In this document: piece by piece, positions 7,262 to 14,238 of the stretch | How positions within the stretch are numbered: position 1 is the first letter of the stretch | How the letters are laid out: each line of letters opens with the position of its first letter | Notes under the pieces: generated by a model | Seen by the model: the letters and a program-made list of their open reading frames with translations, nothing else | Told to the model about the DNA's origin: nothing | The model's database searches: none | Assembly (NCBI RefSeq): GCF_000011385.1 | Contig: NC_005125.1 | Coordinates: 4,154,001-4,218,000 of the forward strand | Direction of reading: 5' to 3' | From: Gloeobacter violaceus PCC 7421 | Lineage (GTDB): Bacteria; Cyanobacteriota; Cyanobacteriia; Gloeobacterales; Gloeobacteraceae | DNA length: 64,000 nucleotides | Made by a program: the position numbers and the translations under genes

Positions 7262-7304
7262 GCAAACACCCCCGGACCTAACGATCCGGGGGTGTTTGCA
7301 TCTT
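7262..7304 (+). terminator. rho-independent terminator of the GUN4-scsB-redoxin operon
   Basis: A perfect 15-base inverted repeat (7262-7276 and 7285-7299) with an 8-base loop, followed by a short T-rich stretch, lies 19 bases after the redoxin stop. Confidence 0.85.
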
Positions 7305-7386
7305 TGGCGCGGGTGCCTAACTTTTTTCTGAGTGATGGATGTTAGGAAAGCCTCGGACAACACAATGAGATTGACGGCGTTAACAA

Positions 7387-8550
7387 TTAATCATTTAGCT
7401 GAATATCTCTGTACAAATAACGCTCTTCCAATCTCGATATATCTTTCAATACATCGACAATTACTTGTCTATTGACCATGGGGCCAACGACGTCATCAAT
7501 GACATCCCTAATCTCATAAACTTTAACTGAACTACCCCCCTCTAAGCTTACCTCCATCCAATCCTCGTCCAGTTGTAGACCTCTCAGTACTCCGCGAAGC
7601 GAAACAGATTCATATTGAGCAGATGAATGAGGTTCTTTGGCAAGTTTTTCCTTTTTTATTGCTCTATTTATAGCCTCTCGGGAGCTTTGCACTAGAACCA
7701 CAGGTATACTGTCTAAACTGTCTGACGATTTAATCTCAAGTTGTTGAAATGAATTGTTTGATGGCGCGGGAGCAAGATTTCTTGTCAATCTCAAAAAAGC
7801 GTCTCTATACTTGGGAGCATCAATATACTGCTCATCAGGGATGATCACAGTTAGTTGTTCTTGGTCGCCTTGAGAGCCTGCTTCTACAATGTTAAGAAAC
7901 TTCTGAGTGATCTCTTCTACTTCAGGCAAGCCATTAGGAAACAACGATAGTTGTTTGGGTTTCTGAACACGAACAGCGAATTGGTAGCTTCCCGCAGGTG
8001 CCTGGAACAGCCAAGGTTTACACTGTTCTTGTACTTCTATGCTAGGGGCGCCTCTTCTGCGAAAATCCCTGCCCATGAGCATTTCTATGGTTCTGTAAAA
8101 CAGCTTTCCTACTTCTTCGACTTTGTTCAGAATCAAATCAAGCGGAGCCCCTCCGTATACAACCTCGCCTCCGCTTACAGATACAAGCACTTCACCTCTA
8201 ATGAACTCAACTCCTGACTTAACACGGCTCTCCTCGGACCAAATTGTTTGCAGTAAATTTTCTAGCTTTTCAGCTGCGAAAGGCGGCATGTTTTGCGTTG
8301 ACAAACATTTGTGTATGAATGATTTTGCTCTCGCAAAGTCATGACCTTTAAACAAAAGCGATGCTGCGCTTACTGCAGTAATTCCTAAGGTTCGTGTTTT
8401 GGTTGGCTCTAGTGAAGCATAAGCATTCATCTCAGCTATTGCTGCATCAATATAAAGTTGCTGTGCCTGCTCAAATTCGTGTGATGTTATCGCCACCTGC
8501 GCTGAAGTGGCTAGCTCCTCGCTTCTTCTGTGGTAGGTTAACCAACTCAT
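7387..8550 (-). CDS. hypothetical protein, second gene of an AT-rich two-gene cassette
   Basis: A 387-residue cytosolic protein of no recognised family. The first 110 residues look helical, with TPR/MIT-like spacing (SHEFEQAQQLYIDAAIAEMN, then KGHDFARAKSFIHKCL). The middle has a strand-rich part (GEVLVSVSGGEVVYGG) and a basic RDFRRRG stretch. The C-terminus alternates strands and helices (SVKVYEIRDVIDDVV, then VIVDVLKDISRLEERYLYRD). It overlaps the preceding gene by 4 bases (ATGA), so the two are translated together. Its codons are far more AT-rich than the flanking genes, suggesting acquisition by transfer. Confidence 0.75.
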   Translation of the reverse strand: MSWLTYHRRSEELATSAQVAITSHEFEQAQQLYIDAAIAEMNAYASLEPTKTRTLGITAVSAASLLFKGHDFARAKSFIHKCLSTQNMPPFAAEKLENLLQTIWSEESRVKSGVEFIRGEVLVSVSGGEVVYGGAPLDLILNKVEEVGKLFYRTIEMLMGRDFRRRGAPSIEVQEQCKPWLFQAPAGSYQFAVRVQKPKQLSLFPNGLPEVEEITQKFLNIVEAGSQGDQEQLTVIIPDEQYIDAPKYRDAFLRLTRNLAPAPSNNSFQQLEIKSSDSLDSIPVVLVQSSREAINRAIKKEKLAKEPHSSAQYESVSLRGVLRGLQLDEDWMEVSLEGGSSVKVYEIRDVIDDVVGPMVNRQVIVDVLKDISRLEERYLYRDIQLND

Positions 8551-9107
8551 GACGAATCTTCAACTTTCTGAATGGCAATAAGCTGAGCTTTAAAACCAAC
8601 AACAGCAGCTAGTGCTGGTAAGTTGCTGTTACCGTCCTTTGTCTGCTGAATCTTTTGGCTAAGGCGCCTGCCAACTTCGGGCTTATCAGAATTGGTACCT
8701 GATACTTCGAGCCGGAAACAATTCTCTAAATCATCAATATCTCCACCGGGAGATATATAGTAATCAGCTCCCGTTTTCGTTTCTGCGCGGCTAATTGCAA
8801 ACAAGCCGTAAACAAGTTCAACTGCTGCAAGCGCAAAAGGGTATGCTCCGTCTCGCGTTGCGTCATCTTTGTTGGCCCAAGCTGCCCTGCATCTGTCGTC
8901 TGTGGGTTGCCATTGGACTGTTGCAACCATAACCATTTCCAACTTGCCGTTTCCCAGTGTAAATTCTTTCGGAGGGATATGATGCAAATCTAAACACACC
9001 CGGGCGGCATCCAGGTAATGCTCGGCAGTGGACGGCATTAAACCGTAATGCCGAGCAGCCATATCCTGAATTGGCAAAAGAGGTATACCTGTGTTCTGCA
9101 TTTCCAT
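8547..9107 (-). CDS. hypothetical protein, first gene of an AT-rich two-gene cassette
   Basis: A 186-residue cytosolic protein of no recognised family. A hydrophobic helix (AYPFALAAVELVYGLFAISR) is followed by ETKTGADYYISPGGDIDDLE, then FRLEVSGT, and the protein ends near LAAVVGFKAQLIAIQK. The order helix, G-A-D, strand with L-E-V-S resembles, only loosely, a PD-(D/E)XK core with Ser in place of Lys; this is speculation. It overlaps the next gene by 4 bases. The pair shares an AT-rich composition and sits between two terminators, so it looks like a self-contained unit. Confidence 0.75.
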   Translation of the reverse strand: MEMQNTGIPLLPIQDMAARHYGLMPSTAEHYLDAARVCLDLHHIPPKEFTLGNGKLEMVMVATVQWQPTDDRCRAAWANKDDATRDGAYPFALAAVELVYGLFAISRAETKTGADYYISPGGDIDDLENCFRLEVSGTNSDKPEVGRRLSQKIQQTKDGNSNLPALAAVVGFKAQLIAIQKVEDSS

Positions 9108-9257
9108 GAATGGATTGGGTAGCGCTGTGGTCTGCTGCCTAAAGCACAGCAGCTGCAGGCCGCATGTTAGAAAGTGTGATTAGTATACCCGATCAACACA
9201 ATATGTACCCTGGATTCTTCCCATTGCTTACCAAGTCTCAACGACCACAATGAAAGA

Positions 9258-9286
9258 CCTCACCTGTGATCGGCAGGTGAGGTTTT
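9258..9286. terminator. terminator between nrdJ and the two-gene cassette
   Basis: A perfect 9-base stem (9258-9266 and 9274-9282) with a 7-base loop is followed on the plus strand by TTTT. On the minus strand, along which nrdJ is read, it is followed by TCTTTC. It most likely ends nrdJ transcription and insulates the cassette beyond it. Confidence 0.7.
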
Positions 9287-9309
9287 GTGAATAACTGCGG
9301 GCGAGGTGC

Positions 9310-12300
9310 TCAGCTTTTCACGAAGCACATCGAGTAGGAGTCTGAGCGCACCACTAGCAACCGGCGGCCGTTCTCGCGGATCCACACTTGGTAGTGGAGT
9401 ACCCCGCCGCCGCAGCCGCCCTTGAACTGGCTGCTGGTCCAGTCGTCGACCGGAGCCTCCTCACTCAGATACATTGGGCCTTCGTCGTAGTGGATGCCGA
9501 TGAGTGAGGCCGCCTGGGAGACCTCTTCGTCCAGCATCGCAGGGCGCGCTGCGCCCGTGGCGAAGGGTCGGGCAGGGACATAGCCGTTACCGTTGCCGTC
9601 GGCCGTCGGTGCCACGGGCTGCGCAGCTGCGGCCGGCTCGTTTTGGTCGATGGCGCCGATTTTGACCGGTTCCGATTCGAGGGTGCCCTCGCGGTAGACG
9701 GTGATCCCCTTGAGGCCGTTGCGCTGGGCGAAGCGGTACATCTCCTTGATTTCTTCGACGGTGGTCTCGCGACTGCAGTTGATCGTCTTGCTGATGCTGC
9801 TGTCCACCCAGTTTTGCCAGCGGCTCTGGGCGAGCACGTGCCACTGCCAGGAGATCTCACGCGAGATTTTAAAGGCGGCGGCTTCTTCAGGGTGCGCCGC
9901 CGCGAAGGCGGTGCCCTGCAGCGAGCCGGTCTGCAGCACGATCTGGCGATCTGCCTCCCCCAGACCCAGCGCCTCGACGTAGGGACTGGGGATCTGCACC
10001 CAGTTTTGCTGGGAACTAGAGGCGTCCACGTAGACCTGCTTCCAGATCGTGAGCCCGAAGTCGGGTTCGAAGGCCCACGAACAGGAGGCCAGTTGCGCGA
10101 TCGAACCGGTGGGGGCAATCGAGAGCACCGTCGAGTTGCGCCGAGGTGTCTGGGTCAGCGCTTCGGCGCGCTCTGCCGCCTCGTCGCCACTGAGAACGCG
10201 GCCGGTGGAGTCCCTCCAGCGCTCGAAGGGGTTGCCGGGGCGCACATCTTTGATCTCCTCCCAGATACCGCAGGCGCCTTTTTCGGCGGCAAGCGCCTCG
10301 GAGGTGCGGTAGGCGCGCTCAGCGATGAAGCGGCCGACTTTGTCGATCTCTCGAAGGTGCGCCTCGGAGTCATAAGGAATGCGGCGGGCCTTCAGCCAGT
10401 CGGCCCAACCCATGATCCCGAGTCCCAACTGCCGAAAGACGTTGCGGACGTTGTGCTTCTGGGCCGGGGTGGCAAATTCGGCCACATCGAGCACGTTGTC
10501 CAAAAAGCGCGTCGAGATTTCGACCGTGCGGGCCAGGTCTTCCCAATCGAGTTCGACGCCCCGCTCGGTGCGGTGCATGAACTTGGAAATCACGATCGAT
10601 CCCAGGTTGCACGCCGAGTTCGGGGGTAACCAGATTTCTCCGCAGTTGTGTACCACCAGACCGTTGGCGTCGAAGCGGGCCGGCCCCGGGACGGTGCAGT
10701 CATACACTTCCTCGATCCCGTCGGGTGTGAGCGATTCGACGGTGGCGCTGAACCGTTCGCGGTTGGGCGTGCGGCTGTAGGTATCCACCAGTTTGGCCAG
10801 GCGAGCGGCTTTGGCCGGGTGCTCGAAGCCAACCAGTTGCGCAAAGACTTGAAGGTTGTCCTTCGCGATCACCAGTTCGTACTGGCTCTTGCACGGGTAG
10901 GGTGCGCTTTGGCGGCGGCTGTCGGGCAGCATCCGCACCTGGGCTTCGCGGCGCTTGTAAATGTCCGAGGCGATTCCGAGTCTCAGCAGCATCCGCTGTA
11001 CCGCTTCGAGCGTCGGCAGGTCGCTCTGGCTGAGGCGCACGCTGACGCCTTTTTGCTGATCGCCTTGCACGCTGCCGTCGGCGTCGAACAGCCCCCGCAG
11101 GAAGCCGCGATAAAATTCAAAGCTTCCCTGCTCGACCCGGGACGTCACCCGCTTGCAGCCGGGAACGATCTTGAAGGTGGCAGCCAGCCGGGCCAAACCC
11201 GAAGATTGGACACTTGCCACGCCCTGGGCGTTGATGGTGCCTGCGAGCTTGCGGCCGACGTTGGCGCGGCTCGTCGCCAGGGTCACGGCGCGACCGGGCA
11301 TTTCGGGGGCGGAAGCTTCCCAGAAACTGAGCTTCGCGCAGAGCGTGCCGTTGTTGTCGCGCACAAAGCAGCCGTCGCCCACCAGCGTCCCCAGAAGCCA
11401 GCCAGTTTCGGCGTCGCCGGGGCCGTCCCACGGTTGCAGACCGCGGTGGTCGTGGAGCATCACCCGGTCTCCAGGATTCAACTGTTCCGCCGGTACCCAC
11501 TCGGTGTACTGCCGGTGGCGCGTCTGGGCGGTGAGCTTGAGCACCTGGTGATTGCCCGTAAGCCGCAACTGGTGGCCTTCTTTGGTGCGCAGGCGCAGCA
11601 CCGGCTTGACACCGGTGGCAAAAAAACCGGCGCTCGTGGTGCTGAATAGCTCCCCGTTGACGTAGGTGCTGTGCTGGACACCGATCAGATCGCGCGCCTG
11701 GCGGGGACCGTCGCCGGTATGCACCCAGGTGTCGGCCGTCACGCAAGGGTTCGTAGTTGTAATGAAATTTTTTATTGGTGAGCGGCGCCTGGCATTGTCG
11801 CTGAGAAGCAAGCCAGGATCGGCGGTATCGTGAGCGTACTGCGCAATCTGATTCCACAGATCAACGACACCGGGATTGCCCTCGTCGAGTTTGTCGAAAA
11901 ATTCGTCGTCGACCAGGACCGAGATGTTGGCGTTGTGCCAGCGGCGATCGCGGGTGCCCTTGGGCGAGAGGTGCGTCTCAGTCCAGGTGTCGGTCAATTC
12001 CTGCTTGAGCTGGTCTAGCCGGGCATTTTTTTCAACATCGGACAGACCTTTATCCACAGCTAAATCCGCTGTCCGTTCGATCAAGTCGCGGGCTACACGA
12101 GCGTCCATGACCGACTGGGTCTTCGCCTGGATGAACTCCCAGACGTCCGGGTGCTTCCAGTGCATGGAGAACATGAAAGCTCCCCTGCGGGAATTGGACG
12201 TGTAGATGCCGTTTCCGGAAAGTAGATGCATGCCTTCTACTTCGATGTCGTAAACTCGCTGGGTTCCGACAGACTCGATCGCCACGATTGGGTCCGGAAA

Positions 12301-13932
12301 GTAGTTGACGTGCTGACACAGCGATTCGGCAAGGGCCTGTTTGCCGGCCGTCCGGGTCTTCTCAATCACCTTGAGCAGGGCTGTGTAGAGCAGGTGCTTG
12401 CCGCCAACGGCCACGACGCGCTGGTAGGACGCCCCCCGCACCAAAGCGGGCGGATAGCCCCCGGTGCCATCCCGACCCAGGACCATCGGTGAGTGCACCA
12501 CCTTGGCGCTCCGGCAGCACAGCGTCTGGAAGCGCCGCTTGAATTCGGTGCCGCAGACGTTGAGCCTGTAGATCGTCCGCCAGCCCTGCCGGGAGCGATC
12601 GGTGGTGTGCAGGTTGCTCACGATGCCCTCGGCAAGCAGGAGCAACTGCACCGCGCCGACGAACGCTTTGCTGGTGCAGTCGAATCCGTACCCACCTTTG
12701 CCGCCGCGCACGCAGCCATCGGCGTCGAAGTACCCGGACAAGAAAGCGCCGACCACCGAGCTGGGGCTGCGCAATATCGCTTCCGGCATTGCTAGATCGG
12801 CAGCTTTTTGCTTCAGTAGGCCGTTGGCTTTGAGCCAATCGAGCAGATTGGCTGAGTGCACGAGCAAGTTCCAGACAGCGCCGCTGCCGCTGTAGATCTT
12901 GGTGGTGAGGCCGAATTTTTCGCGGATGATGGCCGCCAATTGATCGCGAACGTTGGGGTAGGTGTGGGAAACTGCCAGACTCAAATAGTTATAGGTCGCA
13001 CCCCGGCCCACGCAGCCGTCGCCGTAGGCATAACCGAGCAAGTAGGCGAGTTGCTCGTCTAGCTCCGGCGGTTGGGCGATCTCTATCGATGAGCGGTAGC
13101 CTGCCGGAATGCATTGAAGGCGCACTTTCTCAGTAACCGGGTTGCTGCCTAAAAGCAGCAGCAAGTTGTCGCCCACCTGCAAGTGGCTCAACTCGTCGAG
13201 CAACAAATCGCCGTTCTCGTCCAGACGGGCCATCTTATGATTGGCGGTCACCTCGACGCTGTAACCTTTGCGGGTGGTGACCCGGAAGACTTCCGCCTCG
13301 CCGTTGTCGAAGCGCTCGCTGATGTTGCGAAATCCCTGGTGGGTGCAGACGCGGGTCCCGACCCCGGCCACCACCTGCTCGACCGGCACGTAGCCTTGCT
13401 CGGTGTGTAGGAGCGTCCCCGCCGCAAAACACTTGTTCCCGGTGGTGATCTTCTTGGAAGTCTCCGAGACCATATCGAGCACTGCGCAGGGGCCGAGGGC
13501 CTTGCCGTCGGCGAAGGGAGTGCCTTTGGGCCGGATGTAGCCCTTTTGGCCATGCGCGCCGATGTTGATCCCGACACCGCCCCTGAACTTGGTGGTCAAG
13601 ACGGCATCGGTGACGAGTTTGGCGATCTCCTGGATGTTGTCCTCGGCCGAGAGCACGAAGCAATTGAGCAAACCGTGGGTGCCGTGGTCGGAGTTGGCCA
13701 GGATCGAGCCGCCCGGCAACATCTTCATCGGCGCCAAGATCGAAAAGAACCTCTCCTGCCACTCGCGCTGGAGGGCAGGGGTTTTTTCGGCCCCGGCCAC
13801 GAAGCGCGCCACGCGGCGGCAGACATCCTCCCAGGTACGCTCCTCGCCGATCAGATACTTCTGCAGAACCGCCCTCTGGGACTCCGACAGAGCCATACCC
13901 TGCTCAAGACTTCCCACCCCGTCCATACCCAT
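9310..13932 (-). CDS. nrdJ: adenosylcobalamin-dependent ribonucleotide reductase with two inteins
   Basis: A 1540-residue precursor. Removing two inteins (413 and 367 residues) leaves about 760 residues, a usual length for cyanobacterial class II NrdJ. The enzyme reduces ribonucleotides to deoxyribonucleotides with a radical made from B12. Host motifs include MLPGGSILANSDHGTHGLLN, FRGGVGINIGAHG, SRRGAFMFSMHWKHPDVW, the active-site NPCGEIWLPP (rebuilt by splicing) and APTGSIAQLASCSWAFEPDF. Cys residues near the C-terminus (GGCGGG, YSMCFVKS) may shuttle electrons. I chose the Met at 13932 because AGGAG lies 8 bases upstream; the open frame continues to 14064 without a better site. Confidence 0.95.
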   Translation of the reverse strand: MGMDGVGSLEQGMALSESQRAVLQKYLIGEERTWEDVCRRVARFVAGAEKTPALQREWQERFFSILAPMKMLPGGSILANSDHGTHGLLNCFVLSAEDNIQEIAKLVTDAVLTTKFRGGVGINIGAHGQKGYIRPKGTPFADGKALGPCAVLDMVSETSKKITTGNKCFAAGTLLHTEQGYVPVEQVVAGVGTRVCTHQGFRNISERFDNGEAEVFRVTTRKGYSVEVTANHKMARLDENGDLLLDELSHLQVGDNLLLLLGSNPVTEKVRLQCIPAGYRSSIEIAQPPELDEQLAYLLGYAYGDGCVGRGATYNYLSLAVSHTYPNVRDQLAAIIREKFGLTTKIYSGSGAVWNLLVHSANLLDWLKANGLLKQKAADLAMPEAILRSPSSVVGAFLSGYFDADGCVRGGKGGYGFDCTSKAFVGAVQLLLLAEGIVSNLHTTDRSRQGWRTIYRLNVCGTEFKRRFQTLCCRSAKVVHSPMVLGRDGTGGYPPALVRGASYQRVVAVGGKHLLYTALLKVIEKTRTAGKQALAESLCQHVNYFPDPIVAIESVGTQRVYDIEVEGMHLLSGNGIYTSNSRRGAFMFSMHWKHPDVWEFIQAKTQSVMDARVARDLIERTADLAVDKGLSDVEKNARLDQLKQELTDTWTETHLSPKGTRDRRWHNANISVLVDDEFFDKLDEGNPGVVDLWNQIAQYAHDTADPGLLLSDNARRRSPIKNFITTTNPCVTADTWVHTGDGPRQARDLIGVQHSTYVNGELFSTTSAGFFATGVKPVLRLRTKEGHQLRLTGNHQVLKLTAQTRHRQYTEWVPAEQLNPGDRVMLHDHRGLQPWDGPGDAETGWLLGTLVGDGCFVRDNNGTLCAKLSFWEASAPEMPGRAVTLATSRANVGRKLAGTINAQGVASVQSSGLARLAATFKIVPGCKRVTSRVEQGSFEFYRGFLRGLFDADGSVQGDQQKGVSVRLSQSDLPTLEAVQRMLLRLGIASDIYKRREAQVRMLPDSRRQSAPYPCKSQYELVIAKDNLQVFAQLVGFEHPAKAARLAKLVDTYSRTPNRERFSATVESLTPDGIEEVYDCTVPGPARFDANGLVVHNCGEIWLPPNSACNLGSIVISKFMHRTERGVELDWEDLARTVEISTRFLDNVLDVAEFATPAQKHNVRNVFRQLGLGIMGWADWLKARRIPYDSEAHLREIDKVGRFIAERAYRTSEALAAEKGACGIWEEIKDVRPGNPFERWRDSTGRVLSGDEAAERAEALTQTPRRNSTVLSIAPTGSIAQLASCSWAFEPDFGLTIWKQVYVDASSSQQNWVQIPSPYVEALGLGEADRQIVLQTGSLQGTAFAAAHPEEAAAFKISREISWQWHVLAQSRWQNWVDSSISKTINCSRETTVEEIKEMYRFAQRNGLKGITVYREGTLESEPVKIGAIDQNEPAAAAQPVAPTADGNGNGYVPARPFATGAARPAMLDEEVSQAASLIGIHYDEGPMYLSEEAPVDDWTSSQFKGGCGGGVLHYQVWIRENGRRLLVVRSDSYSMCFVKS
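10645..11745 (-). other. intein 2 in NrdJ, LAGLIDADG type
   Basis: A 367-residue in-frame insertion. It begins with Cys (CVTADTWVHTGDGP), has the block B motif LTGNHQVL and two LAGLIDADG helices (WLLGTLVGDGCF and FLRGLFDADGSV), and ends DANGLVVHN. The terminal His-Asn and the following host Cys are standard for splicing. The host flanks are TTNP and CGEIWLPP, so the +1 residue is the Cys of the NPCGE active site. The endonuclease motifs keep their acidic residues, so homing activity is possible. Confidence 0.93.
12193..13431 (-). other. intein 1 in NrdJ, LAGLIDADG type
   Basis: A 413-residue in-frame insertion. It begins with Cys (CFAAGTLLHTEQGYVPV), has block B VTANHKMARL and two LAGLIDADG helices (YLLGYAYGDGCV and FLSGYFDADGCV), and ends LLSGNGIYTSN. 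The penultimate residue is Ser rather than the usual His. Host flanks are TTGNK and SRRGAFMF, placing the insertion next to a conserved substrate-site loop, with Ser as the +1 nucleophile. Confidence 0.93.
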
Positions 13933-14238
13933 GGTGCTCGCTCCTGCAAATAATCGGATGACCAACTCCGCATCTAGTGGGGCAAGATGCAGTTGGGCAA
14001 TAACGAACACTTTATTTGGACTCCCCCGGGTCGTCAACTGCCGACTGTGGGAACCCGCCTGCAAACACCATGGGTAGATCCGCCCGCCGACGGCGTTCTT
14101 GTGGCTGCCGCCGCTTCATCGAATTTATTGATGGCCTGCCATCATTTTATTGCATCTGAGGACTTTTGTCCATGTTGGCGGCGGGGCCATGCGGGATGTG
14201 AAGCCGGGATTACAATAAAGTAACGAAGGAGAAAAAGC
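13933..14238. other. divergent intergenic region between nrdJ and the PCP_red gene
   Basis: About 306 bases holding promoters for both directions. The end near 14239 carries GAAGGAG before the GTG start, and the nrdJ side has AGGAG. I looked for a cobalamin riboswitch in front of the B12-dependent nrdJ and saw no convincing conserved core. No gene is supported here. Confidence 0.5.

Follow-up and report, generated by a model that had tools for sequence, protein, structure and literature searches.

A horizontally mobile, overlapping gene pair of Gloeobacter violaceus as a candidate toxin-antitoxin-like module

Two overlapping genes of Gloeobacter violaceus PCC 7421, here called A and B, form a horizontally mobile pair that spans more than 10 bacterial phyla and in which A depends on B. 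We consider it rather likely that the two constitute a translationally coupled, horizontally moving toxin-antitoxin (TA)-like module in which a nuclease, A, is restrained by B, with defence or addiction as its likely role. If so, a pair annotated as "hypothetical" throughout these phyla would be a toxin-antidote or defence system whose nuclease has an unusual active site. The pair lies in a window of 64,000 nucleotides, the whole stretch of DNA that was analysed (NC_005125.1, positions 4,154,001 to 4,218,000), within a genome of 4.66 Mb on a single contig.

Both open reading frames are on the minus strand, and they share 4 bp (ATGA), the overlap that a preliminary description made from the sequence had reported. 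The same description had called the pair clearly richer in A and T than its surroundings, and the composition bears this out (43-47% GC against 62%): GC is 0.47 in gene A and 0.43 in gene B compared with 0.62 for the whole window, and 800-bp windows range from 0.43 to 0.48 within the block and from about 0.60 to 0.68 nearby. The block is flanked on one side by DsbD- and redoxin-like genes and on the other by an intein-bearing ribonucleotide reductase gene (NrdJ). Its features are as follows, in coordinates of the window.

8547..9107, minus strand: gene A, a 186-aa protein with a predicted PD-(D/E)xK-type nuclease fold (putative toxin/effector)
8763..8765, minus strand: D115 codon of A, the acidic residue of beta 2, invariant among aligned relatives
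8700..8708, minus strand: E134-V-S136 codons of A, the beta-3 motif, with ExS replacing ExK; E and S invariant
7387..8550, minus strand: gene B, a 387-aa TPR-like/middle domain/OB-fold protein (putative antidote and sensor)
8215..8550, minus strand: B residues 1-112, TPR-like helical domain, common to all B homologues
7624..8205, minus strand: B residues 116-309, middle domain, conserved, without family assignment and modelled at lower confidence
7387..7623, minus strand: B residues 310-387, OB-fold domain
7293..9307, no strand: block for which G003, a genome of the same genus, has 22 bp (the redoxin and NrdJ genes flank this empty site)
7262..7299, no strand: 15-bp perfect hairpin, terminator-like, in the interval between the redoxin gene and B
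9254..9286, minus strand: terminator-like hairpin 3' of the NrdJ gene and 5' of A

Terminators had been proposed on both sides of the block; the hairpins are present and, on the simplest reading, terminate the redoxin and NrdJ genes next to the block. A palindrome with the core AGGTATACCT covers the first codons of A (9076-9095) and is a possible operator or a chance occurrence; CACAGGTATAC, an 11-bp inverted copy of it, lies within B (7699-7709). Next to the block, the NrdJ open reading frame (9310-14064, minus strand) holds two inteins, of which the first (12189-13433) is missing from NrdJ in two genomes of the same genus, G001 and G003, and represents a recent gain or loss; the second is kept or aligned through in both.

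Comparison with genomes of the same genus revealed that the pair is mobile. In the alignment with G003, window positions 7293-9307 are absent and 22 bp stand in their place, with the neighbouring genes conserved at 91-95% DNA identity. Neither A nor B was found in G002. The pair does occur at the same place in G001, with both genes disrupted: two different insertion sequences, located at contig ends, cut A behind residue 117 and B ahead of residue 319, respectively. The pair is thus absent or broken in close relatives rather than fixed among them. Anabaena, Leptolyngbya and Hymenobacter also carry copies on plasmids. Together with its patchy presence across phyla, the empty site and the plasmid copies establish the pair as a horizontally mobile unit, as had been suggested. 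A phage origin was considered and rejected, with 0 matches in 50,697 phage records and merely 4 loci on viral contigs. The two insertion sequences found in G001 (L012, 7174-7297; L013, 11676-11798) reach ~40 copies apiece in that genome and are few in G000 and G003, copy numbers that mark a transposition burst in G001.

The near-direct repeat flanking the block, which had been put forward as a footprint of insertion, fared less well. Its two copies match only if a one-base gap is allowed (12 vs 11 nt), shuffling the 100-bp flanks 2000 times produced such a match 24 times, the sister genome G001 has the repeat in altered form, and both copies fall inside the block absent from G003; these results do not support it as an insertion footprint, and its reading as a target-site duplication was rejected. 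Low GC is likewise no proof of recent arrival when taken alone, because it is a property of the clade: the Gloeobacter pair belongs to a clade (support 1.0) whose other members, 57-61% identical in A, come from scattered cyanobacteria, and the pair genes of this clade have a GC of 0.34-0.47 irrespective of host.

Gene A is present in 53 of 390 cyanobacterial genomes, representing 35 of 160 genera, and also in Chloroflexi, Nitrospirae, Planctomycetes, Gemmatimonadota, Latescibacterota, Acidobacteria, Proteobacteria, Bacteroidota, Omnitrophota and others. Among 80 fetched loci from mixed phyla, which were found through A, B adjoins A on the same strand in 79, and the identical 4-bp overlap recurs in 68 of these 79, so that the two genes do stay together in distant genomes. 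The divergences of A and B are correlated (Mantel r 0.76, p 0.001), and in relatives both genes have dN/dS values of about 0.07-0.13, indicative of strong purifying selection. A fixed third gene was sought and rejected: neighbours vary between loci, and the unit is therefore the two genes. In two loci from different phyla (L073, 6926-7675; L083, 6941-7717) a related gene of ~250 aa directly follows a short B and is perhaps a third component.

The preliminary description had called both genes unrecognised, and family searches leave them so. Pfam and NCBIfam gave zero matches for A or B, including known toxin or antitoxin families; the PADLOC-DB 2023 defence models gave no match at a useful E-value for A, B or their canonical relatives; and a PHROGs search returned just two weak matches, both to families of unknown function. 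A sequence search of the PDB found no relatives of A and, for B, consensus TPR proteins only. An open-access literature search found no description of this pair.

If A is harmful without B, then B should outlive A and never the opposite. We therefore ran profiles of A and of the TPR part of B over the same 390 cyanobacterial genomes and paired the matches. This gave 100 sites, of which 39 have both genes intact, 13 have a broken A beside an intact B and 19 an intact B alone, the remaining sites having only partial copies, or none, of one or both genes. Inspection for contig ends had discarded one of 14 sites with broken A and intact B as well as the single apparent site with intact A and partial B. 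Overall, an intact B without an intact A was found at 32 sites and an intact A without an intact B at 0. Given gene length alone (179 vs 115 model positions), the probability that all 33 sites before correction would be one-sided is 8e-8, and for the 32 sites about 1e-7; both values assume independent sites, an assumption that closely related genomes violate. Similarly, the 80 mixed-phyla loci, found as they were through A, include 8 with a broken A and an intact TPR part and 0 of the reverse. A thus depends on B and is never intact without it in the cyanobacteria surveyed. The same decay pattern would arise if B were under selection for a role that does not involve A, so the results show the dependence of A on B rather than toxicity of A; orphan B genes might be retained for a function of their own.

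The predicted model of A (pLDDT 92) has an order of elements that fits the PD-(D/E)xK nuclease fold, preceded by extra N-terminal helices and strands (residues 1-79). Its top structural matches are mostly PD-(D/E)xK nucleases: the DREN nuclease of SPARDA (Z 6.0), Hjc (5.8), SSO0001 (5.4) and I-Ssp6803I (4.8). The scores are modest, with a Foldseek E of 0.02 and Z at most 6, where a Z below 8 can reflect a common arrangement, and the match list also holds tRNA-splicing endonucleases and unrelated proteins; membership in PD-(D/E)xK is therefore placed at the level of the fold, and metal-dependent phosphodiester cleavage is a putative activity of A. Foldseek matches to spliceosomal Prp8, tRNA-splicing endonucleases, Rep15 and TDP2 were set aside for their low scores. 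Among aligned relatives D115 (beta 2), E134 (beta 3), S136, G137 and R148 are invariant, and K152 and Q155 nearly so. The "GAD" and "LEVSG" layout singled out in the preliminary description is thus real and corresponds to the nuclease-motif positions D115 and E134-x-S136-G137.

The catalytic lysine of the ExK motif was not found: position 136 is serine in every aligned A, and because the canonical lysine is replaced throughout, activity of A cannot be assumed. The PD-(D/E)xK group includes known enzymes in which the lysine has been relocated, and, judging from the conservation pattern, R148 or K152 in the next helix could supply the base in place of the missing residue. It might be argued from the same serine that A has lost catalysis and uses its nuclease fold to bind nucleic acid or B, and that the pair is regulatory or serves nucleic-acid maintenance without toxicity; two further residues conserved elsewhere, E85 and E171, are altered in the Gloeobacter clade, the first often to R and the second to G. 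We regard this explanation as distinctly improbable, since D115, E134 and the basic residues R148 and K152 are kept (nearly) invariant under strong purifying selection, enzymes of this fold with the lysine elsewhere exist, and a patchy, mobile distribution does not fit housekeeping.

In the model of B (pLDDT 76) the TPR-like N-terminus is confident, the middle is poorly resolved and the C-terminus is an OB fold. Residues 1-112 form tandem antiparallel helix pairs, as in TPR proteins, and match TPR folds with Z up to 12.8, a score to be read in the light of the generally high scores of helical bundles; a profile of this part matches consensus TPR proteins (E 1.4e-7) and reached no Pfam cut-off. 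The TPR-like N-terminus seen from the sequence was thereby confirmed, and the "mixed alpha/beta" C-terminus resolves into the middle domain plus the OB fold, which is closest to single-strand-binding proteins (Rim1, Z 9.7) and, on the strength of the model, could bind nucleic acid. No antitoxin-type DNA-binding domain of the HTH or RHH family was recognised in B. B genes fall into two classes: short ones, the usual kind in cyanobacteria, encode the TPR part only (about 110-140 aa), and long ones, among them that of the window, encode 370-400 aa. The TPR part is the only portion common to all homologues.

We propose the following mode of action. In the absence of B, A would harm the cell as a nuclease; the TPR-like N-terminal part of B would keep A inactive; and the middle and OB-fold parts of the long B would sense a nucleic-acid or invasion signal and so free A, whose release would most likely serve defence or addiction.

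Orphan B genes connect B to toxins in another way. Five of the 19 lie directly 3' of a toxin gene assigned by Pfam on the same strand, PIN in three cases (L170, L171, L172) and ParE in two (L176, L179), and a sixth (L182) overlaps by 4 bp with a small gene that is RelE-like by eye and has no Pfam match. Since toxins precede other B genes, A occupies a position held elsewhere by a toxin. Weak remnants of A persist at three other orphan sites (L174, L177, L181). Elsewhere the TPR part of B is fused to pentapeptide repeats (L173). In another locus, on a plasmid of Hymenobacter radiodurans (L021, 6519-7424), it is fused in frame to a sugar transferase (PF02397, E 3e-52), and this fusion adjoins a KAP-type P-loop NTPase.

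Such fusions and the PIN and ParE neighbours would also fit a B that functions autonomously, perhaps as a companion or chaperone of TPR type at TA loci, with A as one of several upstream partners. We think this unlikely, given that B genes whose neighbours are recorded have A or a remnant of A beside them in by far the most cases. Because L171 and L172 are related to each other, the toxin-B cases come to about four independent ones. The searched genomes carry only 5-40 PIN genes each, a low number that we count in favour of the TA-like reading; in PIN-rich genomes adjacency by chance is more probable. A larger class can be suggested, tentatively, if A is indeed restrained by B: an undescribed, widespread group of TA or abortive-defence systems built on an ExS nuclease of PD-(D/E)xK fold and a TPR antidote that has interchangeable C-termini (OB, sugar transferase or pentapeptide) or serves PIN and ParE.

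Among known systems, the pair resembles type II TA and tripartite TA-chaperone modules in having two small, co-directional, overlapping and mobile genes. As in type II TA modules, the genes co-occur as adjacent neighbours, and toxin-like A is lost more readily than B: at the cyanobacterial sites B is retained without an intact A and A is never kept intact without B; the PIN and ParE toxins beside orphan B genes add a further link. Unlike type II TA modules, neither gene belongs to a known toxin or antitoxin family, the effector precedes its partner, and the partner is a TPR plus OB-fold protein. The position of B 3' of A, opposite to the common TA order, counts against the module. In the open-access literature searched, no TPR-type antitoxin was found under that name, and a TPR antidote would, if real, be an antitoxin type not named there. 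The earlier guess of a mobile defence or TA-like unit is therefore supported in its mobile and TA-like part, through the empty site, the patchy distribution across phyla, the co-occurrence, the one-sided decay and the TA or defence neighbours, and is not supported in the repeat footprint.

The best fold match of A is the DREN nuclease domain of the short prokaryotic Argonaute systems called SPARDA (Z 6.0, rmsd 3.3, 102 residues). The catalytic residues D41 and Q60 of DREN are 19 positions apart (PMC12205087), the same spacing as between D115 and E134 of A, and K62 of DREN corresponds to S136. However, the PDB search gave no significant sequence similarity between DREN and A, A ends with its nuclease domain at 186 aa and is too short to include APAZ, and the partner is a TPR/OB protein rather than an Argonaute. 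Archaeal Hjc resolvase and other stand-alone PD-(D/E)xK nucleases share the core fold and acidic positions (Hjc, Z 5.8, rmsd 3.4, 93 residues); A differs from Hjc in its extra N-terminal elements, its ExS in place of ExK and its obligate partner gene.

The module probably serves defence, and genes of biological conflict do occur near intact pairs: a CBASS cyclase and phospholipase (L094), IetA (L134), a PifA-like gene and, with assignments made partly by eye, a KAP NTPase (L021), type I restriction (L087, L098), an NLR-like gene with a nucleosidase (L145), TIR (L148) and HicAB-like and HigBA-like genes (L072, L084). The neighbours are mixed: defence-model genes stand at a minority of loci, and many of the other neighbours are housekeeping genes. 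A dominant location in defence islands was rejected on these grounds, and no enrichment is claimed.

The CBASS, IetA, PifA-like, restriction and NLR-like neighbours, the PD-(D/E)xK-like fold of A and the similarity of the OB fold to single-strand-binding proteins would also suit an anti-phage nuclease that works without addiction, in which an A-B complex recognises foreign or damaged nucleic acid through B and cuts it through A, A alone being useless and not toxic. To this we give little probability: a useless lone A predicts some intact or freshly orphaned A genes together with decay of B, whereas B is intact at 32 sites that lack an intact A, and the OB part is missing from most cyanobacterial B genes. 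Under the reading as a TA-like module, profiles of A and B could extend surveys of defence genes. In a locus from Latescibacteria (L094, 6986-8498), the pair and a second copy of B lie beside a patatin-like phospholipase, and PADLOC models for the CBASS cyclase and the phospholipase effector match these neighbours.
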